Below are positions 1,331 to 17,238 of a DNA stretch of 21,715 nucleotides, piece by piece. A program made the translations under genes and the position numbers. The notes beneath the pieces were generated by a model. That model was not told the origin of the DNA. It made no database searches and worked only from the letters and a program-made list of their open reading frames with translations. How positions within the stretch are numbered: the first letter of the stretch is position 1; each line of letters begins with the position of its first letter. The stretch lies in IMG/VR virus record IMGVR_UViG_3300008107_001243, positions 1 to 21,715 of that record. The stretch is one strand, 5' to 3'. Source of the DNA: a virus.

Positions 1331-2086
1331 ATGTTCAAGTCTAAAGCTTTGCTTTCCATCAATGCTGATGCAAAAACTAGCAAGGGTGAAACCTTCGGTT
1401 TTCTGACAGGCATTCTCTATCTAGCACCTTACCTTTCCACTAAGTGGAACACATGCAGCATGGCAGCTAAAGCTGAATGTGGCGAGGCATGTCTGTACAC
1501 TGCTGGCCGTGGTGCAATGTCAACTGTGGCAAATGGCCGCATCAACAAAACCATTTGGTTTTTTACTGAACGCAATAGTTTCATGCAACAGCTTGCTGTT
1601 AACATTCGACAGCTAGTGAGCAAAGCTGCTAAGCAAAGCTTAGTTCCATTGGTTAGACTCAATGGTACTAGCGACATTCGCTGGGAAGCTGTAAGCTTCG
1701 TTGATACCGATGGTGTGGAATACTCTAGCATCTTCGATGCTTTCCCTACAGTACAATTCTACGACTACACAAAGGATGTGAATCGTAAGGGTTTACCCTT
1801 AAATTACGATCTGACATTCTCATACAGTGGTGTCGTAGGCTTTCAGCCTTATGTCAACAAAGCCATTGAAAATGGCATGCGAATGGCTGTCGTTTTCCGT
1901 AGTGTCGCTGCTATACCGAAGGTATTTAAAGGCATGTCAGTTATCGGTGGCGATAACAGTGACATTCGTCACTTAGAGGATAAGGGTGTGGTTGTTGCAT
2001 TGTATGCTAAGGGCAAAGCGAAGCTTGATATGACGGGCTTTGTCGTTGATGCAGCTAAGCCTGTATTCATGCTGCAAGCCGCCTAA
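1331..2086 (+). CDS. GP88-family phage protein (gene 88 product-like)
   Basis: Encodes 251 residues. It carries the features I associate with the phage gene-88 family: LAPY near residue 31, a Cys cluster (C42, C50, C54) followed by GRG (59-61), and NGTSDIRWE at 111-119. The molecular function of the family is not known to me. It has its own promoter (P2), so it is probably strongly expressed early. An upstream in-frame start at 1280 is rejected because the TGAAA hairpin and GGAAACA site sit just before 1331. The nucleotide sequence is odd: at least ten perfect inverted repeats with stems of 6 bp or more and 2-4-base loops lie inside the gene, and a 14-base palindrome spans the stop codon. Confidence 0.8.
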   Translation: MFKSKALLSINADAKTSKGETFGFLTGILYLAPYLSTKWNTCSMAAKAECGEACLYTAGRGAMSTVANGRINKTIWFFTERNSFMQQLAVNIRQLVSKAAKQSLVPLVRLNGTSDIRWEAVSFVDTDGVEYSSIFDAFPTVQFYDYTKDVNRKGLPLNYDLTFSYSGVVGFQPYVNKAIENGMRMAVVFRSVAAIPKVFKGMSVIGGDNSDIRHLEDKGVVVALYAKGKAKLDMTGFVVDAAKPVFMLQAA

Positions 2087-2262: not shown

Positions 2263-2292
2263 TTGACAGTGCAAGTTAAATGTTTGTATAAT
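2263..2292 (+). promoter_or_regulatory. Sigma-70 promoter P3
   Basis: TTGACA (2263-2268) and TATAAT (2287-2292), both consensus, with an 18-bp spacer. The -10 context TGTTTGTATAATTGAGGCC is the same as at P1. It is followed by a long leader with boxA-like and boxC-like elements and should drive the operon of small genes from 2567 onward. Confidence 0.85.
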
Positions 2293-2316
2293 TGAGGCCA
2301 AGCTGATCACAGCAAG

Positions 2317-2363
2317 TCGTTCTTTAAAAATCAAATGCTAGTGTCGGTGAGGGTGTGTGTTTC
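2317..2363 (+). promoter_or_regulatory. boxA/boxC-like antitermination element
   Basis: TCGTTCTTTAAAA at 2317-2329 matches the boxA core of rRNA leaders and phage nut sites (YGYTCTTTAA). GGTGTGTG at 2352-2359 matches boxC as described for lambda nut sites. They lie about 20 and 55 bases after the expected P3 start. In known systems boxA RNA is bound by NusB and S10 to help RNA polymerase pass terminators. No clear boxB hairpin and no N-like protein were recognised. Confidence 0.5.
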
Positions 2364-2402
2364 TTAGCAGGGCATGCATCATCACTATGGACTAGCCCAA
2401 TC

Positions 2403-2445
2403 TGTACAGGGTGAATGTACAGGGCATGCTGACATATCATGCTGA
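2403..2445. repeat. Two adjacent tandem pairs with 13-bp period
   Basis: TGTACAGGG occurs at 2403-2411 and 2416-2424, and CATGCTGA at 2425-2432 and 2438-2445; both pairs have a 13-bp period. CAGGGCATGC at 2420-2429 also occurs at 2368-2377. They lie in the P3 leader and could be protein-binding or RNA-structure elements. No function is known. Confidence 0.5.
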
Positions 2446-2545
2446 TAATATGTGAGTGAATCCATTGTGGCTGTTGGGTGATGGCTAGACAATGGGTTTC
2501 AGTGAGGGTATCAATGATGCACTGACTGAAGCTATTTCGCTTCGA

Positions 2546-2558
2546 TTACCATAGGTAA
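2546..2558 (+). promoter_or_regulatory. Start-site hairpin TTACC-ATA-GGTAA
   Basis: A 5-bp stem with an ATA loop, eight bases before ATG 2567. It resembles the TACC-GAA-GGTA hairpin before the first gene, including the trailing AAAC and CACC. A GAAGC/GCTTC inverted repeat (2528-2543) precedes it. Confidence 0.6.
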
Positions 2559-2566
2559 ACAACACC

Positions 2567-2743
2567 ATGAAAATCATTGAAAATGACGATGGTTCTTATA
2601 TCCGTCAATGGAAATGTGCATGTAACAGGGTGCTTGAGACTGACAGGCACAGTGCTGGTGATGTAGAGTGCGACTGTGGTCGATGGTTCAATACCTTCGG
2701 TCAGCAACTGCAAGACCCTGCTAATTGGCACGATGATTATTAA
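2567..2743 (+). CDS. 58-residue protein with two CxC pairs (zinc-ribbon-like)
   Basis: Begins MKIIENDDGSYIRQWKCACN and has Cys pairs C17-x-C19 and C35-x-C37, spaced like a small zinc ribbon; the tail is acidic and aromatic (NWHDDY). No named family is recognised. It is the first gene of the P3 operon, 275 bases after the -10 box, and its start is set by the TTACC-ATA-GGTAA hairpin. The stop TAA at 2741-2743 runs straight into the next start-site hairpin. A metal-binding or nucleic-acid-binding role is possible from the cysteines; this is inference. Confidence 0.65.
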   Translation: MKIIENDDGSYIRQWKCACNRVLETDRHSAGDVECDCGRWFNTFGQQLQDPANWHDDY

Positions 2744-2756
2744 TTCCTGAAAGGAA
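2744..2756 (+). promoter_or_regulatory. Start-site hairpin TTCC-TGAAA-GGAA
   Basis: A 4-bp stem with the TGAAA loop, five bases before ATG 2762 and directly after the previous stop codon. Confidence 0.65.
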
Positions 2757-2761
2757 ACAAC

Positions 2762-3190
2762 ATGGCTAAAACAATTATCCCTGTCACTGCTGGTGTATCA
2801 ACATGGGGTGAGAATGCTGACTGTACAGTCAGGGCATTGGCTAACAGCGCTGGCTTAGTTTATGGCAATGCTCATAAGATATTGCGTCAACATGGCAGGA
2901 AAGACAAGCGAGGCTGCACCTGTAATGTGTGGCACGATGCATACATTTCCAATGGCATGTCACTGGTAGGTGTCTACGGCACAACCAAAGGGGCACGATA
3001 CCTAGCGAAGAAAATATCTGTTGTGGCACAGGCTGGCACAACCCTCGGTAGCATATTGCCTAAGCTTACAAACGGCAGCTACATTGTCATCATTACACGG
3101 CATGCATTGGCTGTGGTGAATGGTGGTGTCGTTGACATGAATTTAAATCGGTCTAACAGCCGTGTCATTGCAGTGTACAAACATTCCTGA
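2762..3190 (+). CDS. Possible papain-like cysteine peptidase/amidase-fold protein
   Basis: Encodes 142 residues. A Cys in an N-terminal helix context (NADCTVRALANSAG, C21), a later strand with His (IITRHALAVVNGGVVD, H114) and an Asp eleven residues on (D125) give the Cys-His-Asp order of papain-like folds. This arrangement is common in phage proteins of unknown role. A second Cys pair (GCTC, about residues 51-54) lies in between. If active, it could cleave a host protein early in infection. The start follows a TTCC-TGAAA-GGAA hairpin and GGAAACA. A perfect 16-base palindrome (2817-2832) spans the codons for C21. The fold assignment is tentative. Confidence 0.6.
   Translation: MAKTIIPVTAGVSTWGENADCTVRALANSAGLVYGNAHKILRQHGRKDKRGCTCNVWHDAYISNGMSLVGVYGTTKGARYLAKKISVVAQAGTTLGSILPKLTNGSYIVIITRHALAVVNGGVVDMNLNRSNSRVIAVYKHS
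2817..2832. repeat. Perfect 16-bp palindrome
   Basis: CTGACTGTACAGTCAG is fully self-complementary. It lies inside the protease-like gene over the codons for the putative catalytic Cys. It could be a protein-binding site or a chance result of the coding sequence. Confidence 0.6.
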
Positions 3191-3196
3191 AAGGAA
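3184..3196 (+). promoter_or_regulatory. Start-site hairpin TTCC-TGAAA-GGAA
   Basis: A 4-bp stem with the TGAAA loop. The loop TGA is the stop codon of the protease-like gene. It lies seven bases before ATG 3204 and rules out the in-frame upstream start at 3162. Confidence 0.65.
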
Positions 3197-3203
3197 ACAT
3201 ATT

Positions 3204-3443
3204 ATGGAACACAATTATACAATCATCCTCTACCCATATACTGTAGCTTCAAGCTCCGGTGTTGTGCAGATATCACCCTCTACACAGTATGGGTATTGGG
3301 AATTCTCAGACGGCAGCGAAGGTGGTGGGCTGTGGTTTGAGGGTAAAGAACTGGTAGATTTCGATGGGCATTATGTCCTGCCAGCTAGAGTATGTAAGGC
3401 ACTGCGAGACAATGGCTACATACTAGACGAATCGTTCGATTAA
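3204..3443 (+). CDS. Small early protein, unknown
   Basis: Encodes 79 residues. The N-terminal half alternates polar and hydrophobic residues, with many Ser and Gly (SSSGVVQIS, FSDGSEGGGLWFEGKE), and looks like a small beta-sheet domain; the C-terminal part has a short helix (PARVCKALRDNGY) and an acidic end. No family is recognised. The start at 3204 is chosen because it follows the TGAAA hairpin and GGAAACA; an in-frame start at 3162 would overlap the previous gene by 29 bases. Confidence 0.65.
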   Translation: MEHNYTIILYPYTVASSSGVVQISPSTQYGYWEFSDGSEGGGLWFEGKELVDFDGHYVLPARVCKALRDNGYILDESFD

Positions 3444-3444
3444 C

Positions 3445-3455
3445 TCCTGAAAGGA
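3445..3455 (+). promoter_or_regulatory. Start-site hairpin TCC-TGAAA-GGA
   Basis: A 3-bp stem with the TGAAA loop, eight bases before ATG 3464. The core CTCCTGAAAGGAAACA is the same as before 3645. Confidence 0.55.
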
Positions 3456-3463
3456 AACATAAT

Positions 3464-3610
3464 ATGTTTACATATGTACATATTAAAGACAGTTTCACAA
3501 TTGCATTCAATGGCAATATATACATGGTGATCGATACACTACTTGATGTTTCAGTTAAATTTAATTCTTATGATGATGCATTAGAATATATCGAATCAGA
3601 AACTATTTAA
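3464..3610 (+). CDS. 48-residue early protein, unknown
   Basis: Begins MFTYVHIKDSFTIAFNGNIY and ends with an acidic stretch (SYDDALEYIESETI). The pattern of short strands followed by a helix resembles other tiny phage proteins, but I do not recognise a family. It sits between two genes with identical CTCCTGAAAGGAAACA leaders, has its own copy of that leader and fills the gap exactly, which supports it as a real gene despite its size. The codons are AT-rich compared with its neighbours. Confidence 0.6.
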   Translation: MFTYVHIKDSFTIAFNGNIYMVIDTLLDVSVKFNSYDDALEYIESETI

Positions 3611-3626
3611 TTGTTCGTTAACACAC

Positions 3627-3637
3627 TCCTGAAAGGA
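3627..3637 (+). promoter_or_regulatory. Start-site hairpin TCC-TGAAA-GGA
   Basis: A 3-bp stem with the TGAAA loop, seven bases before ATG 3645. Confidence 0.55.
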
Positions 3638-3644
3638 AACACAC

Positions 3645-4034
3645 ATGAAAGTATTCGTATACTTTAACCTGCACCGCAAGCTGTTCAGTATCAAGGCACT
3701 TGAGGGTGACATGAAGGGGCGTGTCATAGCACATCGTCAACAGGTGCTGCTCACCAATGCGACATTCAAGGTGTCTGAGGCAGGACGGCAGCGTGTCATC
3801 CGTGAACAGCGCAAGAATGTACATGCTGGTGTCAGTGGCACATGGTTTGATGCTGCTAAAGCTGGTGGCAGGGCACATGAGTTCATCAGCATGAATGGCT
3901 CACTCATTATGTATAACCCCTACAAATACGATTCGTTTGTTCACCGATATGGTGAGCATCCGATAAAGTCTGCAAGAGTTGTAGCGCTGTCTGTCAATGA
4001 CAGCAAGCGTCCATCCATCCACACTTGGGAGTAA
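3645..4034 (+). CDS. Conserved phage hypothetical protein (KNVHAGVSG type)
   Basis: Encodes 129 residues. It matches, from memory, a conserved phage family beginning MKVFVYFNLHRKLFSIKAL with a central GRQRVIREQRKNVHAGVSG (about residues 47-65). The N-terminal part looks like a small beta domain and the centre is basic, which would allow nucleic-acid binding, but the function is unknown. The start follows a TGAAA hairpin and GGAAACAC. The last codons (CACTTGGGAGTAA) supply GGGAG, the likely ribosome site of the next gene. A CTGTC-AAT-GACAG hairpin (3991-4003) lies near the 3' end. Confidence 0.75.
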   Translation: MKVFVYFNLHRKLFSIKALEGDMKGRVIAHRQQVLLTNATFKVSEAGRQRVIREQRKNVHAGVSGTWFDAAKAGGRAHEFISMNGSLIMYNPYKYDSFVHRYGEHPIKSARVVALSVNDSKRPSIHTWE

Positions 4035-4039
4035 TTAAT

Positions 4040-4345
4040 ATGCTGCTTAAACTAGGCAAATGGAATGTTCGTATCGTCAATACTGGCGACACTTATGGCA
4101 GGGCTATGTGCCTTACTAATGACAAAGCACCGATGGTAGAGTTCTACGATGTGCGATATCCACATACTCAGTATGGACAGTTTGTCTCACGCTATTATAT
4201 CTCCACCATACTTAGTCAAGACAGCCGTGGTGGTGAGTACTCTAACGGACTGTGCCTAGATGGTAGAGTGCCAGCGTGGCAAGTGTCTGCTGAGGATATG
4301 GCACAGGTTGTAACCTTTCTGAAAGAACATAATGCAAACACCTAA
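4040..4345 (+). CDS. Conserved phage hypothetical protein
   Basis: Encodes 101 residues. Features remembered from a phage family are GQFVSRYYISTIL in the middle and GLCLDGRVPAWQVSAEDM near the C-terminus. Function unknown. The start at ATG 4040 is chosen because GGGAG (4027-4031), within the end of the previous gene, is well placed; a TTG at 4025 in the same frame would overlap that gene and has no better site. The 3' end overlaps the start of the next gene by 14 bases and carries its TGAAA hairpin. Confidence 0.75.
   Translation: MLLKLGKWNVRIVNTGDTYGRAMCLTNDKAPMVEFYDVRYPHTQYGQFVSRYYISTILSQDSRGGEYSNGLCLDGRVPAWQVSAEDMAQVVTFLKEHNANT
4317..4327 (+). promoter_or_regulatory. Start-site hairpin TTC-TGAAA-GAA
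   Basis: A 3-bp stem with the TGAAA loop inside the end of the upstream gene, four bases before ATG 4332. It is the most downstream copy of the family seen in the window. Confidence 0.45.
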
Positions 4346-4553
4346 ATGTTATTATAGTTTTGCCCAACATAATGATGACGATATTAATAATTGGAGCGTC
4401 ATTGTAGATGGGATGCCAATATGCAGCAAGCGTACATTCCCTGAAGCTGTGCGCTGTGCTGAGAGTTTCAACCTAACACCATCAGAATACTTTTGGAATG
4501 GTGTAATAGGACAGTTTATTCAACTAGTTAATATTGAAGAGGTGAAAGCATGA
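4332..4553 (+). CDS. Small phage protein, unknown
   Basis: Encodes 73 residues, starting MQTPKCYYSFAQHNDDD. A short beta-like stretch (WSVIVDGMPICSK) is followed by a helix (FPEAVRCAESFNL) and a polar-to-aliphatic C-terminus. No family is recognised. It overlaps the previous gene by 14 bases and the next by ATGA, so translation is probably coupled along this run of small genes. From here to about 6776 the genes are tiny and AT-rich, typical of fast-changing early phage accessory genes. Confidence 0.65.
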   Translation: MQTPKCYYSFAQHNDDDINNWSVIVDGMPICSKRTFPEAVRCAESFNLTPSEYFWNGVIGQFIQLVNIEEVKA

Positions 4554-4714
4554 CAATACCAGAAACTATTGGTGCAGATATTGCCAAACAATGCAAGTGG
4601 GTAGGCGAAGATATTATGTCTGCTTTTCTTGAGGCACTGACTGATGCCAATCACCATACTTTGCGTTCACGGATTGAAGATGCATATAATAATTATCTTG
4701 ATGAAATATCATGA
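4550..4714 (+). CDS. 54-residue protein, unknown
   Basis: Begins MTIPETIGADIAKQCKWVGE and is predicted mostly helical and acidic (SRIEDAYNNYLDEIS at the end). ATGA overlaps at both ends and a GAGGTGAAAGC ribosome site upstream support it as a real gene in a coupled operon. No family is recognised and no function can be given. Confidence 0.65.
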   Translation: MTIPETIGADIAKQCKWVGEDIMSAFLEALTDANHHTLRSRIEDAYNNYLDEIS

Positions 4715-4881
4715 ATGCATACCGGCAGACACATTATCATTTCTTCTTGAACTGTGCAGACCACAGGCTTGCTCATGGACTAGCGACACTATCCCTTGAC
4801 CATATACAACGGGGCAAGTGGCTGAGTGAAGATGAGATTAAAGACTTTACAATTGCTTACATGATGGGGAATGAGCTATGA
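4711..4881 (+). CDS. 56-residue protein, unknown
   Basis: Begins MNAYRQTHYHFFLNCADHRL; the N-terminal half is rich in His and aromatic residues and the C-terminal half is acidic and helical (WLSEDEIKDFTIAYMMGNEL). It fills the space between two ATGA overlaps without a gap, the main evidence that it is expressed. No family is recognised. The histidines and a cysteine might bind a metal, but the spacing matches no motif I know. Confidence 0.6.
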   Translation: MNAYRQTHYHFFLNCADHRLAHGLATLSLDHIQRGKWLSEDEIKDFTIAYMMGNEL

Positions 4882-5096
4882 CAACACACATAGACATGTT
4901 TAATGTAGACAACTACTACACATGGGAAATGGCAGAGTTGCAAGGCGCTGTATATACAGTGGCTATACATTCTGTTGACGAACCCCATCATGGTGCTGGT
5001 AAATACATTATGGATGACATACTTGCTGCCATTAATGTAACATGTGAGATGTTAGATGGTAGCCCACATGTTAGAACCCGTATAAGGAGCGAATGA
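4878..5096 (+). CDS. Small phage protein, unknown
   Basis: Encodes 72 residues, starting MTTHIDMFNVDNYYTWEM and ending RTRIRSE. It contains several His and Met residues and an acidic middle (VDEPHHGAGKYIMDD). No family is recognised. It overlaps the previous gene by ATGA and ends one base before the next start, with that gene's AAGGAG ribosome site inside its last codons. Confidence 0.65.
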   Translation: MTTHIDMFNVDNYYTWEMAELQGAVYTVAIHSVDEPHHGAGKYIMDDILAAINVTCEMLDGSPHVRTRIRSE

Positions 5097-5097
5097 A

Positions 5098-5328
5098 ATG
5101 GCTAAAGTAGTATTTGAAAACAATGAATATATTCTCAGAGATGATTGGGGTATTGATGATGTTCGCAACATTATAGATTATGCTGACATTACAAAGGCTA
5201 AGTCTTTCACAGATGACGATTGTGTCCGTGTGCTTGAGATGGTAGCGGAGAGTTTCGATGCTAACTATGGCATCACATGGGATAGTTTGGAGCATGCCAT
5301 CACTACATATATAGAGGATTCAAAATGA
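5098..5328 (+). CDS. Small acidic phage protein, unknown
   Basis: Encodes 76 residues and is strongly acidic (DDWGIDDVRN, FTDDDCVRV). It ends IEDSK; two genes downstream end EESK and a third ends KETK, because this C-terminus also encodes the ribosome site of the following gene (GAGGATTCAAAATGA). The start at 5098 follows AAGGAG by nine bases. Acidic early phage proteins can act as DNA mimics or inhibitors, but there is no specific sign of that here. Confidence 0.65.
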   Translation: MAKVVFENNEYILRDDWGIDDVRNIIDYADITKAKSFTDDDCVRVLEMVAESFDANYGITWDSLEHAITTYIEDSK

Positions 5329-5390
5329 GTGACGCAGTTATATACTTGCTGCACATGATTGAGATCGTTATACTTTTTATTATCCATTGA
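5325..5390 (+). CDS. Possible 21-residue hydrophobic peptide
   Basis: Reads MSDAVIYLLHMIEIVILFII plus His, then TGA. Nearly the whole peptide is hydrophobic, like a single membrane span. It begins with an ATGA overlap and the same GAGGATTCAAAATG junction used by neighbouring genes, and ends 13 bases before the next start, so it fits the operon. Because of its size this remains a tentative call; it may only serve translational coupling. Confidence 0.4.
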   Translation: MSDAVIYLLHMIEIVILFIIH

Positions 5391-5403
5391 AAGAGGAAAC
5401 AAA

Positions 5404-5562
5404 ATGAAGTATTCAGTAACAGTGGCGTTCAGCCTTTTGCAAACCATTGAGGTGGATGCAGACAGCAAAGATGATGCTATGCTCGCCGCATGGGACTTGT
5501 TCGACCAAGCCAAGGCAGTGCTTGGCGAGGGGGAGATTATCTGTGTAGAGGAATCAAAATGA
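5404..5562 (+). CDS. DpnD/PcfM-like small protein, first paralogue
   Basis: Encodes 52 residues: MKYSVTVAFSLLQTIEVDAD, then SKDDAMLAAWDLFDQ, ending VEESK. The strand-strand-helix pattern with an alternating N-terminal strand and SK(D/S)(D/E)A before the helix is that of the small DpnD/PcfM-like family, common in phages and plasmids and of unknown function. The next gene is a clear paralogue. The start follows AGAGGAAACAAA; a TTG further upstream in frame is rejected. The final codons hold the ribosome site of the next gene. Confidence 0.65.
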   Translation: MKYSVTVAFSLLQTIEVDADSKDDAMLAAWDLFDQAKAVLGEGEIICVEESK

Positions 5563-5735
5563 AAACATTTAAAATAGTTATGACCCGTACAGTTTATCAA
5601 TGTGCTGAAATTGAAATAGAAGCATCCTCTAAATCAGAAGCTGTGCAACAAGTATTAGATACTCCAGAGCAGCATGTGTGGGATACAGACTTTATATTAG
5701 ATTATGAAATTGCTTACCTAGAGGAATCAAAATGA
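5559..5735 (+). CDS. DpnD/PcfM-like small protein, second paralogue
   Basis: Encodes 58 residues: MKTFKIVMTRTVYQCAEIEI, then EASSKSEAVQQVLDT, ending YLEESK. It shares the strand-strand-helix layout, the SK-x-E/D-A step and the EESK end with the preceding gene, so the pair probably arose by tandem duplication. The function of the family is unknown. It starts with an ATGA overlap and a GAGGAATCAAA ribosome site; an earlier in-frame start at 5490 lies deep in the previous gene and is rejected. Confidence 0.68.
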   Translation: MKTFKIVMTRTVYQCAEIEIEASSKSEAVQQVLDTPEQHVWDTDFILDYEIAYLEESK

Positions 5736-5965
5736 AACAGTCAGACTATTCAAGACTTGAAGACATGTTAGGCCGTGCATATGAGTTGGCTGCACAGGTT
5801 GTGAACGGAGACAAGGCAGACACCTCACTTGCTGAGGAAGTATGTGGTGAGTGTGCTGAACTACTGGCACTCATGGATAATGACATGGGTGTATTCGGTG
5901 AAGAGGAAGTGATCGATAAAGAACTGCAATCTTTGGCTCTCATGTTACAAAAGGAAACAAAATGA
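5732..5965 (+). CDS. Small acidic helical protein, unknown
   Basis: Encodes 77 residues, predicted almost entirely helical (YSRLEDMLGRAYELAAQVV, then AEEVCGECAELLALM), strongly acidic and ending KETK. A CGEC pair lies at about residues 38-41, but a redox role is not supported by other features. ATGA overlaps at both ends place it in the coupled run. No family is recognised. Confidence 0.65.
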   Translation: MKQSDYSRLEDMLGRAYELAAQVVNGDKADTSLAEEVCGECAELLALMDNDMGVFGEEEVIDKELQSLALMLQKETK

Positions 5966-6234
5966 AAACATTCACAGTGATTGTATACTCCGATGCAGGG
6001 CATGCATGGGGCAAGGTGAAGCGTCAAGTGCTGGTGAATCTAGGCATTGCAGACAAGGTGTCTACATACAGCTACCAGTACAAGGACAATGTATATCTTG
6101 AAGAGGACTGCGATCTCAGGCTATTGATGGAGGCACTGCCTGAAACAACTCGCATTAAGTTTGTTGAGAAGCACACCGATAATAACAGCCGCATCCGTTC
6201 ATACTCTCATTACTCCACAGAAAGCGCAACATGA
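5962..6234 (+). CDS. Conserved phage hypothetical protein
   Basis: Encodes 90 residues. The pattern GHAWGKVKRQVLVNLGIADK (about residues 13-32), then YSYQYKDNVYLEEDCDL and a C-terminal NNSRIRSYSHY, is one I associate with a widespread small phage protein of unknown function. ATGA overlaps at both ends. The C-terminal RIRSYSHY is basic and aromatic, so it may contact nucleic acid or another protein; this is inference. Confidence 0.7.
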   Translation: MKTFTVIVYSDAGHAWGKVKRQVLVNLGIADKVSTYSYQYKDNVYLEEDCDLRLLMEALPETTRIKFVEKHTDNNSRIRSYSHYSTESAT

Positions 6235-6377
6235 TAGATACTAGAGTGCCATCGATTACACTGGTATATAAACTAGTGAACGCTGCTATACATGAGTTTG
6301 AAGATAAAGAATATGAAGAAGCTATTGAGTCACTTGAGTTGGCGAAGCGAACTCTTGAGGATATAGCAGATGTTTAA
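6231..6377 (+). CDS. 48-residue helical protein, unknown
   Basis: Begins MIDTRVPSITLVYKLVNAAI and continues as one acidic amphipathic helix or helical hairpin (EFEDKEYEEAIESLELAKRT), resembling a single helical repeat. It overlaps the previous gene by ATGA and the next by eight bases, leaving no gap, which supports expression. No family is recognised. Confidence 0.6.
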   Translation: MIDTRVPSITLVYKLVNAAIHEFEDKEYEEAIESLELAKRTLEDIADV

Positions 6378-6609
6378 TATGCTGGCAATAAGCGCTGGTT
6401 GTTTTGCCATATTATCCTTTGCCTTTTGGGTAGGTGGTGAGACTGAGCGTATGAAGCAAGAGCTTATAGCTGCACAGATAGAGAGCAGGTGCTACGCTAA
6501 GGGTAAGTTTGAAGCATTTGTTGCCAAGGATGGCACAGACTATGCTTGTTTCAAACAAAACATTGAGACAAAGAAGATTAGCAGATCATCAATTGTTATG
6601 GGAGAGTGA
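6370..6609 (+). CDS. Small membrane-anchored protein, unknown
   Basis: Encodes 79 residues. Residues 3-22 (including LAISAGCFAILSFAFWVGG) form a signal anchor or uncleaved signal peptide, followed by a charged domain with two cysteines (SRCYAK and YACFK). The layout suggests one membrane span with the C-terminal part in the periplasm and a possible disulfide. It is not a clear spanin. An alternative start at 6379 would shorten the protein by three residues. It overlaps the previous gene by eight bases. Confidence 0.65.
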   Translation: MFNMLAISAGCFAILSFAFWVGGETERMKQELIAAQIESRCYAKGKFEAFVAKDGTDYACFKQNIETKKISRSSIVMGE

Positions 6610-6611
6610 GT

Positions 6612-6776
6612 ATGGCATACGAATATATGCTTGGATATATGCAAGGACGCAGAGGACAATTTCGTTTCCGGCAAAATGTCAGTGATGAATACAATGCCGG
6701 ATACTTAAAAGGGTTTGCGTTATATGAGGGTGACATAATGATACTGAGACAACTAGTTAATAGGTACAACAAATGA
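6612..6776 (+). CDS. 54-residue basic protein, unknown
   Basis: Begins MAYEYMLGYMQGRRGQFRFR and has a repeated Tyr-Gly rhythm (GYMQG, then AGYLKGF). The ribosome site GGAGAGTGAGT lies just upstream, at the end of the previous gene, and the gene ends with an ATGA overlap. The tail is MILRQLVNRYNK. It is Arg-rich in the first half; a nucleic-acid or host-protein target is possible but unsupported. No family is recognised. Confidence 0.6.
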   Translation: MAYEYMLGYMQGRRGQFRFRQNVSDEYNAGYLKGFALYEGDIMILRQLVNRYNK

Positions 6777-7051
6777 AAGGTGCTTACATGATTACCGATA
6801 TTGATATCAATGACTTTGAAGTGCTGCCAGTGCGTGAGCTTTACAAGTGTAGGCCACGAAGCTATGTGCAGCTACCAACTGGTGAGGTGTTCTTCTACGA
6901 TCACATTGACGGCTCGTACAGCTACTGCCTGAACATGTTCGGTGAGGTGTGTCACTTGGCTGCATGGCAGAGTGTGCATCCGCTTGATAGGGTCAGGCTT
7001 TGGATACCAGCACTTGATAAAGACCCTTCACCTAAGTCGGACATTGCTTGA
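6773..7051 (+). CDS. Conserved phage hypothetical protein
   Basis: Encodes 92 residues from ATG 6773 (ATGA overlap); an in-frame ATG at 6788, five codons later, follows AAAGGTG and could also be used. The middle reads SYVQLPTGEVFFYDHIDGSY and then SYCLNMFGEVCHLAAWQSVH, a compact beta-rich small domain that I recall from other phage early regions, function unknown. It is the last gene of the first small-gene operon: its stop codon overlaps the -35 box of promoter P4. Confidence 0.65.
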   Translation: MKGAYMITDIDINDFEVLPVRELYKCRPRSYVQLPTGEVFFYDHIDGSYSYCLNMFGEVCHLAAWQSVHPLDRVRLWIPALDKDPSPKSDIA

Positions 7052-15254: not shown

Positions 15255-15974
15255 ATGGATTGGGTATACGACATTGAGACATACCCCAACTGCTTCACCT
15301 TCACAGCCGTATGTGCAGACAACTCACGCACTCATGTGTACGAATGCTCGACACGAAAGAATGATGTGTCGCAATTGTTTGAGTTCTTAGACATGTTGCA
15401 TGACAAGAAGCACAGGATGGTGGGCTTTAACAACAAAGGCTTTGACTATCCAGTGCTGCATGCTTTGCTTGAAGTGAGGGCTAAAGCTGTCACAGTGTCG
15501 GGCAAAGCTGTTGCCAAGAAAGCATACAAGGTTGCACAAGACCTCATCTCTGTACAAGCTGAGCATAACAATGCTCGTTTAAAAGAGCATATAAAGCAGA
15601 TCGATCTATTTAAGATACATCACTTCGACAACAAGGCACGAGCCACTAGTCTGAAGATGATTGAATTTAATATGAAGTCTGACAGCATTGAGGACTTGCC
15701 ATTCCCTGTTGGCACTGAGCTTACCGACAGTGAGATTGATGTGTTGCTTAAATACAACATGCATGATGTTATCAAGACGCTCGACTTCTACAACATATCA
15801 TTGAACGCCATCCGGTTTCGTGATGAGTTGTCAAAGAAGTACAAGCGTGACTTCACCAATCACAATGATACAAAGATCGGCAAAGACTACTTCATCATGC
15901 AGCTTGAGAAGACAATGCCAGACTCATGCTACAAGAAAGACAGTACTGGTAAGAAGGTTTCAGGCAATCTTTGA
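15255..15974 (+). CDS. DNA polymerase, 3'-5' exonuclease part (split gene)
   Basis: Encodes 239 residues. It carries the three exonuclease motifs of family B-type polymerases: YDIETYPN (D6, E8), NNKGFDYPVL (D64) and YNMHD (Y167 and D171). The end, SCYKKDSTGKKVSGNL, stops short at TGA 15972-15974; the polymerase domain continues in the next frame from about 15958. In the phage family I remember, this junction carries a further stretch before the fingers/palm region, so the gene seems to have lost roughly 25-30 residues and its frame. Proofreading for phage replication would be its normal role. Confidence 0.85.
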   Translation: MDWVYDIETYPNCFTFTAVCADNSRTHVYECSTRKNDVSQLFEFLDMLHDKKHRMVGFNNKGFDYPVLHALLEVRAKAVTVSGKAVAKKAYKVAQDLISVQAEHNNARLKEHIKQIDLFKIHHFDNKARATSLKMIEFNMKSDSIEDLPFPVGTELTDSEIDVLLKYNMHDVIKTLDFYNISLNAIRFRDELSKKYKRDFTNHNDTKIGKDYFIMQLEKTMPDSCYKKDSTGKKVSGNL

Positions 15975-17238
15975 ATGGTTCAAGAAGCAGACCATTACTG
16001 AAACTAAGGGTGTGTTCTCTGACATTGCAGAAGACAAGCTTGAGCGAGTGGCGATGTTTGCTGACATGAACATCATGCGTAAGAAGTTTAAGGCAGAGCA
16101 GATAGACGAAGAGCTTGCTGTGTTTAAAGCTGCTTACCCTGCTGGCTGGATTGATAAGGTGGAGTTGAAGGCCAAGAAGAAAGGCCAGCCTGTCTATTCC
16201 TACTGGTACTGCTGGCATGAAGCTGAGACATTGAATGTCATGGTTGATGGCTTTCGCTTTGACTTCGGCACTGGTGGCATTCATGGCAGCTTGTCATCAT
16301 GCATCGTAGCTGAGAGCGATACTCACCAGCTTATTGATGCTGATGTTAGCTCTATGTATCCGAACATTGCCATTGCCAACAGGGTGTATCCAGAACACCT
16401 CACTGACAGGTTCTGTGACATCTACAAGGATGTGTACGAACAGCGTAAGAGCTACCCCAAGGCTAGTGCTGAAAACGCTATGCTGAAGCTGGCATTGAAT
16501 GGTGTGTATGGTGACAGCAACAACCAGTACAGCCCCTTCTATGACCCTCAATACACCATGACCATCACCATCAACGGACAGCTTAGCCTGTGCCTGTTGG
16601 CTGAGAAGCTGTTGACTATTGAGGGCTTGTCGTTGGTACAGGTCAACACCGATGGTGTCACTGTGTTGTGTCCACGCAACATGATGGACAGGTACAACAC
16701 CATCTGTGAAGCATGGCAGCAGCAGGTAGGATTGCAACTTGAGTATGCCAACTATTCAAAGATGATTATCCGTGATGTGAATAACTACCTTGCCTTCTAC
16801 ACAGATGGTAAAGTTAAACGCAAGGGTGCTTATCAGTATGAAGGATTGGGCTGGCATCAAGATCAAGGCGGCTTAGTCATCCCTATGGCAGCTGAAGCAA
16901 ACATGATTTATGGTACAGACATTAAAGATTTTGTACAAAACCATAAAGACATGTACAATTTCATGCTGAGAACAAAGGTGCCACGCAATAGCAAGCTTAT
17001 GCTGGTGATGGATGATGGTACTGAAATACAACAGCAAAACATTTGTCGTTACTACGCTTGCAAAGATGGTGGTAAGCTGGTTAAAATCATGCCAGCATTG
17101 ATTGAGGGTGGTGAAGATAGACGGTTGTCAATTGACAGCAGTTGGAATGTTAAGACATGCAACAACATCAAAGACTTCGGCAATGATATTGACTATGATT
17201 ATTACATTGCAGAAGCTGAGAAGCTTGTTGTACAATAG
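15958..17238 (+). CDS. DNA polymerase, polymerase part (5' end frame-disrupted)
   Basis: The frame reads FQAIFEWFKKQTITETKG, then the palm motifs: LIDADVSSMYPN (motif A, about 16330-16365), KLALNGVYG (motif B, from 16486) and VNTDGVTV (motif C, Asp at 16651), as in family B-type phage polymerases, where motif C here is NTDG in place of DTD. About 425 residues to the stop are intact. Family-like sequence begins at 15958 in a frame that is open from 15820, but no start codon there has a good ribosome site (GTG 15820, ATG 15865, TTG 15904, GTG 16012 and ATG 16054 are the options). It may be made by coupling with the exonuclease part, forming a two-subunit enzyme, or the gene may be damaged. Confidence 0.82.
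   Translation, partial: FQAIFEWFKKQTITETKGVFSDIAEDKLERVAMFADMNIMRKKFKAEQIDEELAVFKAAYPAGWIDKVELKAKKKGQPVYSYWYCWHEAETLNVMVDGFRFDFGTGGIHGSLSSCIVAESDTHQLIDADVSSMYPNIAIANRVYPEHLTDRFCDIYKDVYEQRKSYPKASAENAMLKLALNGVYGDSNNQYSPFYDPQYTMTITINGQLSLCLLAEKLLTIEGLSLVQVNTDGVTVLCPRNMMDRYNTICEAWQQQVGLQLEYANYSKMIIRDVNNYLAFYTDGKVKRKGAYQYEGLGWHQDQGGLVIPMAAEANMIYGTDIKDFVQNHKDMYNFMLRTKVPRNSKLMLVMDDGTEIQQQNICRYYACKDGGKLVKIMPALIEGGEDRRLSIDSSWNVKTCNNIKDFGNDIDYDYYIAEAEKLVVQ

Follow-up and report, generated by a model that had tools for sequence, protein, structure and literature searches.

The window, i.e., the whole 21.7-kb stretch of DNA analyzed here, is an IMG/VR virus record in which all recognized genes lie on the plus strand. 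The downstream genes matched DUF932, ADP-ribosylglycohydrolase, integrase, Thy1, primase/helicase, DNA polymerase, exonuclease and RNA ligase. The nearest relatives of the primase/helicase were found in MW202701 and in the Pelagibacter phages HTVC115P, HTVC103P and HTVC104P, and those of gp88 in Limnohabitans phage DC31 (65%) and MW202701 (62%). The DNA polymerase, of family phrog_1252, is split between two overlapping frames (15255-15974 and 15820-17238, covering profile positions 53-273 and 292-648), which may reflect a frameshift, an intron scar or an assembly error. A 36-nt direct repeat, CCTTATATATC..TGCTGCA..TGCAACAA, with 86% identity and 51 nt between the copies, was observed at 50-136. 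The features around the leader considered in this work are as follows:

1331-2086, plus strand: gp88-family gene (PF17338), upstream of promoter P3; it served to find relatives.
2263-2292, plus strand: promoter P3, TTGACA-N18-TATAAT.
2299-2566, plus strand: whole untranslated leader, 268 nt, from the inferred start (about 7 nt after TATAAT) to the ATG at 2567.
2302-2313, plus strand: short hairpin GCTGATCACAGC, 5' of boxA, in the position that boxB takes in rrn leaders.
2319-2329, plus strand: boxA GTTCTTTAAAA, a NusB/NusE-binding element by consensus.
2335-2503, plus strand: conserved structured leader RNA with covariation, matched by covariance model R2 (154 bits, E = 6.6e-36, the window itself being among the training rows of the model).
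2352-2359, plus strand: GGTGTGTG, proposed as boxC, unsupported, inside a variable hairpin.
2567-2743, plus strand: first gene of the operon, encoding a 58-aa Cys-rich small protein with no Pfam match.
2567-7051, plus strand: the operon that follows the leader, with 19 short genes.

The 58-aa protein contains a CxC...CxC arrangement and is similar to the protein encoded first behind the RNA in four relatives (L036, L008, L012 and L013).

The phage promoter postulated in the initial annotation of this DNA was borne out: P3, composed of TTGACA (2263-2268), an 18-nt spacer and TATAAT (2287-2292), agrees with the sigma70 consensus at 12 of 12 positions and is the third of four perfect sigma70 promoters in the window (at 319, 1252, 2263 and 7048). 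P1 (305-374), P2 (1238-1306) and P3 (2259-2299) are near-copies of one promoter unit, TTGACA..TATAATTGAGGCC, with boxA at P3 only. No boxA accompanies P1, P2 or P4, the pattern TCTTTA[AG][AC] occurring on the plus strand only at 2321 and 10719.

A boxA had been placed about 20 bases past the start of P3, and TCGTTCTTTAAAA does lie there. The 11-mer GTTCTTTAAAA is the sole match in the 21.7-kb window to GYTCTTTAANA, given as the boxA consensus in the excerpted text of PMC5725501. The string is T- and A-rich, and a match to the consensus appeared somewhere in 14 of 100 shuffled versions of the window, so that a boxA-like string arisen by chance had to be considered. However, the shuffles averaged 0.14 matches per whole window, and with the element standing about 20 nt behind a perfect promoter a chance match is not plausible. 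Conservation among relatives, on which the initial annotation had staked its proposal, was found for boxA at near-fixed spacing in 54/54 and 40/40 copies of the RNA described below, which refutes the chance explanation, and a control with the motif reversed gave far lower counts (see below). We consider the probability of a coincidence negligible and, judging from the sequence, take the boxA to be real. Across 45 distinct boxA sequences, T-C-T-T-T-A-A-N-A was invariant except at N, and the first position was G in 43, an invariance that is partly fixed by the pattern used for locating boxA; the changes fell at N, at the Y position (where A also occurred) and twice at the first G. The variable positions thus appear to be nearly those of the published consensus. 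The same 11-mer GTTCTTTAAAA, taken from a Legionella CRISPR leader and placed before a CRISPR array, increased pre-crRNA about 10-fold, as given in the excerpt of PMC7862264.

Comparison with the boxA of candidate hosts, suggested along with the original proposal, revealed that the 13-mer GTTCTTTAAAAAT (2319-2331 of the window) is identical in Limnohabitans rrn. It occurs in the rrn operons of all four Limnohabitans genomes searched; six of its 14 copies there lie in 16S leaders, six in 16S-23S spacers and two elsewhere (i.e., 12/14 in rrn operons), and in these four genomes it is nearly rrn-specific. In Limnohabitans sp. 2KL-1, two identical boxA-bearing repeats were seen outside rrn in opposite orientation on one contig (L369:1501-1513 and L370); a repeat search found no CRISPR array at the two non-rrn Limnohabitans copies. 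For a broader comparison 100 Comamonadaceae 16S loci were taken (80 with genus labels, the other 20 unlabelled), and leaders could be read in 86. TTCTTTAAAA serves as boxA in 21 of these 86 leaders, and in 14 of the 17 labelled as Limnohabitans.

The likeness extends upstream of boxA. The hairpin GCTGATCACAGC, missed by the initial annotation, sits 5 nt ahead of boxA; its exact 12-mer was present in 11/86 Comamonadaceae rrn leaders and GCTGATC[AG]CAGC in 63/86, and the start region of the window, TATAAT-TGAGGCCAA-GCTGATCACAGC, is similar to that of certain rrn leaders, e.g., TATAAT-TCAAGGCTTC-GCTGATCACAGC. An HMM built from 78 distinct Comamonadaceae rrn leaders had its best window match at 2262-2333 (E = 2.1e-4; the next was 0.45). 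This match comes mainly from the promoter, the start region and the hairpin, not from boxA, because the host spacers are longer (about 40-60 nt from hairpin to boxA in host rrn leaders versus 5 nt in the window). A model restricted to the hairpin did not reach significance (E = 0.034) and had a stronger chance match in the window at 104-91. Short hairpins precede boxA in the relatives as well, their sequence varying, and close relatives carry different ones at the equivalent place (e.g., L004 and L006); the copying of the exact rrn hairpin is thus a single-phage observation. In the cultured Limnohabitans phage DC31 (PQ492658, L229:2430-2501), an rrn-like leader composed of TATAATCAAGGC, a GTAAAC-GAAA-GTTTAC hairpin and the identical 13-mer GTTCTTTAAAAAT is intergenic, stands before a hypothetical gene and is not followed by the structured leader RNA. 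From DC31, the similarity to Curvibacter phage P26059A and the match of boxA and leader, we infer that the host of the present phage is probably a member of Comamonadaceae.

The boxC claim did not hold. The proposed element GGTGTGTG occurs once in the window versus 1.25 times expected from shuffles, is kept in 6/54 RNA-bearing loci, and forms part of a variable hairpin that some relatives lack. According to the excerpt of PMC10250234, the E. coli rrn leader presents boxB, boxA and boxC in 5'-to-3' order, boxC being UCUGUGUGGG at 18-19 nt 3' of boxA; boxA is described there as both required and sufficient for forming the rrnTAC and recruiting the factors, and the role of boxC as unclear. Being at chance level, poorly kept and different from UCUGUGUGGG, GGTGTGTG was rejected as boxC, and an rrn-type UCUGUGUGGG at 18-19 nt after boxA is absent from the leader of the window. 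Another candidate, GTGTCGG at 2341, kept as GNNTCRG in 50/54 RNA-bearing loci, was rejected as well, since it stands 11 nt after boxA, not 18-19, and falls within the P1/P2 internal loop of the RNA.

This RNA, which the initial annotation had also missed, is untranslated, comprises at least 169 nt and was drawn with six helices and 37 pairs, a pseudoknot included. Its elements are listed below with the pairs showing changes on both sides and, for all but one helix, the share of paired cells:

2337-2341/2392-2396, plus strand: helix P1, enclosing the variable hairpin; 3/5 pairs, 88% of cells paired.
2401-2408/2416-2423, plus strand: helix P3 of the RNA; 7/8 pairs.
2424-2453, plus strand: H-type pseudoknot as a whole, stems A and B.
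2424-2428/2438-2442, plus strand: pseudoknot stem A; 5/5 pairs, 96% of cells paired.
2432-2437/2448-2453, plus strand: pseudoknot stem B, crossing stem A; 3/6 pairs, 100% of cells paired.
2461-2468/2489-2496, plus strand: helix P5 (span 2461-2496); 5/8 pairs, 96% of cells paired.
2470-2474/2481-2485, plus strand: helix inside P5; 2/5 pairs, 100% of cells paired.

The alignment comprised 32 sequences from 39, thinned at 95% identity from 70 boxA-selected copies, with L019 set aside. In total, 95.1% of the cells in paired positions were paired, a figure favored by the drawing of the structure by hand from the window and the aligned rows, and changes on both sides were found in 25 of the 37 pairs. 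The covariation score was 0.593; shuffled controls gave 0.245, and slid controls no more than 0.155. Further pair types were no more numerous than in shuffles (52 vs. 57.9). We judge the excess of double changes to be too large for a bias of hand-drawing alone. The case for the structure rests on this covariation, because the RNA of the window by itself folds only moderately better than its shuffles (z = -2.1). Rfam 15 gave no matches at the gathering thresholds and, for 2280-2580, none with E values of 5 or less, and a known riboswitch or other RNA family was thus rejected as the identity of the leader RNA, which, as judged by comparative analysis, is a new RNA family.

The intervening RNA also bears on whether the Nus complex might reduce first-gene translation. 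Such repression by boxA is described for the suhB 5' UTR in the excerpt of PMC5725501, and the present boxA likewise lies in a 5' UTR; unlike that of suhB, which is close to the Shine-Dalgarno sequence, it ends 237 nt ahead of the ATG at 2567 with the structured RNA between, and translational repression of this kind seems highly improbable here.

The link between boxA and the RNA was followed in relatives collected via the gp88 gene. Model R2, which does not include boxA, matched 54 of 86 sources, namely the window and 53 of 80 gp88 loci, and none of five pieces of named phages. In all 54 of these loci a boxA, TCTTTAANA, stands 13-14 nt upstream of the RNA, although this count is not fully independent, since the training rows of models R1 and R2 had been picked with the boxA pattern. 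A cleaner test is provided by a pattern of the 3' part of the RNA, which holds no boxA: it occurred at 40 places in viral_contigs, and boxA was found 103-129 nt upstream in 40/40. The gp88 gene lay within 3 kb upstream in 36 of the 40 places, one being too short for reading; in L376, L383 and L395 another gene occupied the gp88 slot, yet boxA and RNA were retained. The first gene downstream of the RNA also varies among relatives. With both the upstream and the downstream genes varying, boxA and the RNA form a unit independent of both neighbors. The 27 of 80 gp88 loci without an RNA match include pieces that end early and others that differ in sequence after gp88. No RNA homologues were found in the whole records of MW202701 and DC31 or in pieces of HMO-2011, HTVC023P and P26059A; an exact pattern revealed no prophage copies of boxA with the RNA in genome_contigs, and BLAST against named phages gave no match for the P3 leader or for one other boxA-led leader.

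A sigma70-type promoter adjoins boxA in 14/54 RNA-bearing loci, and none was recognized beside boxA in the other 40. Eight loci without such a promoter (L017, L020, L028, L037, L044, L045, L048 and L074) share variants of a motif, GTTATC-N5/6-TTCTNTATAGGG, located about 40-60 nt 5' of boxA, ahead of a GUGA-loop hairpin and boxA. A phage single-subunit RNA polymerase was considered for these TTCTNTATAGGG relatives; PF00940 was unmatched in 17 records, but the control genomes gave no match either, so that this negative does not establish absence. No second copy of the full TTCTNTATAGGG-type motif was found in ten loci inspected.

Taken together, the strict co-occurrence of boxA with the RNA and the identity of this boxA to that of Limnohabitans rrn operons make it probable, in our view, that host Nus-factor antitermination of the rRNA type, with no recognized N protein, serves the new phage leader RNA. 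The first ~35 nt of the P3 transcript would mimic the leader of a host rRNA operon, with a hairpin in the boxB position and then boxA; the nascent boxA would recruit host NusB-NusE (S10), and together with NusA, NusG and SuhB this would modify RNA polymerase in the rRNA manner, rendering it resistant to Rho, with no phage N protein involved. The modified polymerase would first synthesize the untranslated, pseudoknotted RNA of ~170 nt, whose folding it may assist, as has been proposed for rRNA, and would then continue into the translated early-type operon. The initial annotation regarded this operon as poorly defended against Rho, which its sequence does not bear out: 97.3% of 2567-7051 is coding, with no gap larger than 34 nt, and can thus be covered by ribosomes; the long untranslated stretch, i.e., the uncovered load, is the 268-nt leader. 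The leader itself is rich in G (C/G 0.70) and lacks C-rich stretches; it thus shows no evident site for Rho loading, and protection from Rho is perhaps not the main point. The factor-only antitermination envisaged at the outset thus gains good support from the linkage of boxA, its consensus and the nearly rrn-specific 13-mer, though not in its boxC part.

The phage leader shares with rrn leaders a strong sigma70 promoter, a hairpin followed by boxA and a structured untranslated RNA behind, and differs from them in the missing boxC, in the short hairpin-boxA spacer and in its load, a ~170-nt RNA plus a protein-coding operon. The use of boxA outside rRNA is already known from suhB, CRISPR arrays and lambdoid nut sites; what we rate as new is the leader RNA family attached to boxA, a variant on this known use. 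The phage element shares with the boxA found ahead of CRISPR arrays (Stringer et al. 2020, as cited in the excerpts of PMC7862264 and PMC12691694) a non-rrn use that favors full-length transcription of a long RNA without translation, and it is the same 11-mer as that used in PMC7862264; it differs in standing, in phages, before a structured leader RNA or tRNA genes.

Of the rrn operons and lambda nut sites to which the leader had been likened, it is the former whose order, a hairpin and then boxA, is found here. An unrecognized N-type protein bound to the upstream hairpin or to the structured RNA could, together with boxA, bring about processive antitermination across the operon. N proteins are short and poorly conserved, and the leader, like a lambdoid one, carries boxA in a phage operon; it opens a set of small genes, with many small unannotated proteins among their products, and has a hairpin near boxA. 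For an arginine-rich protein of the N type, ten of the 19 operon proteins were scanned against Pfam, with no match to an antiterminator. Moreover, unlike in lambdoid nut/N systems, the hairpin precedes boxA, in the order of rrn (PMC10250234, excerpt), no boxB follows, and a large conserved RNA is present; the hairpin sequence changes among close relatives and so does the first gene after the RNA. We regard an N-dependent mechanism as quite unlikely.

A put-like RNA had also been suggested, and a conserved structured RNA does follow boxA. In a put- or EAR-like system the pseudoknotted RNA itself would bind RNA polymerase and suppress termination, boxA being a helper. The put system of HK022 suppresses termination without factors, by way of the zinc-binding domain of RNAP. 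As with HK022 putRNA, a structured phage leader RNA opens an early operon, and it is strongly conserved at the operon's 5' end whereas the first gene changes, as expected of a cis element. The architecture, in contrast, is unlike that of putRNA (~70 nt, two stem-loops; PMC9378689, excerpt), with at least 169 nt, six helices including a pseudoknot, and boxA; no Rfam match was obtained, and a contact with polymerase is only putative. Antitermination by the RNA itself thus appears unlikely.

The same low probability is assigned to a trans-acting role, in which the leader would be processed to a small, stable RNA with a target in the host or the phage, and boxA would only ensure its complete transcription and folding, as with rRNA and CRISPR arrays. 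The conservation of the RNA independently of the upstream gene (L376, L383 and L395) and of the downstream gene would fit such a role, as would the like design of boxA ahead of phage tRNA genes. On the other hand, in the sequences inspected the conserved block extends to the ribosome-binding site, with no evident terminator. Alongside the preferred reading, rRNA-type antitermination by host Nus factors, the leader RNA would most likely act in cis at the start of the operon.

The combination of a promoter with boxA was seen in many phage contigs. A perfect promoter followed by TTCTTTAAAA was found in at least 120 stretches of the viral collection, as compared to 25 with the boxA letters reversed. 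Among the matches listed, 103 distinct promoter-boxA sites were retained (duplicates merged, sites with <80 nt downstream dropped, the window's own group included); a tRNA gene lay within 400 nt at 71/103 versus 1/20 in the reversed control, and within 60 nt at 56/103, most often 16-18 nt after boxA. Perfect GNRA-loop hairpins between the -10 element and boxA were counted on 101 distinct sites and on 96 distinct spacers among the matches listed; 32 of the 96 spacers had one, whereas shuffles gave a mean of 0.3 and a maximum of 2. The proximity of tRNA genes and the GNRA hairpins suggest that a promoter-hairpin-boxA cassette before an untranslated RNA recurs in phages; contigs with a promoter, a GNRA hairpin, boxA and tRNA are exemplified by L090:6270-6335 and L143:1294-1357 (within L083-L202). 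The tRNA arrangement is not general, as no boxA was seen in the examined pieces of the tRNA clusters of the named phages JSF10, Aeh1 and EcS1. A search of 78 of the at least 120 promoter-boxA stretches for the leader RNA returned one weak match (L098, 13.9 bits, E = 0.5). In the open-licence literature, at the level of titles and abstract openings, nothing was found on boxA at phage tRNA clusters or on this leader RNA.

Only as a tentative and rather doubtful idea do we suggest that phages, the present freshwater group and others with tRNA clusters among them, use copies of the host rRNA leader (promoter, hairpin and boxA) as an all-purpose cassette to make untranslated RNAs, and that the boxA-tethered pseudoknotted RNA of the present group is itself part of a new protein-free antitermination device, a hybrid of the Nus and put types. 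If rRNA-type antitermination does operate here, it would represent phage use of the host rRNA antitermination complex without an N protein and add a structured RNA family to phage operon leaders; the role of boxA outside rRNA would become testable in a cultured system, Limnohabitans with phage DC31, and many phage tRNA clusters might be transcribed by polymerase modified in the rRNA manner.

Several other boxA-led leaders share motifs of their own and perhaps represent further families of boxA-led phage RNAs: one set carries AGACGCAATATTGAAG (L085, L117, L139 and L187), another TTCTTATACACAT (L106 and L182), and a third a CATATAG..CTATATG hairpin followed by GGTTACC (L088, L116, L119, L127-L129, L144, L179 and L188). 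Some of these leaders are located on contigs of more than 340 kb.
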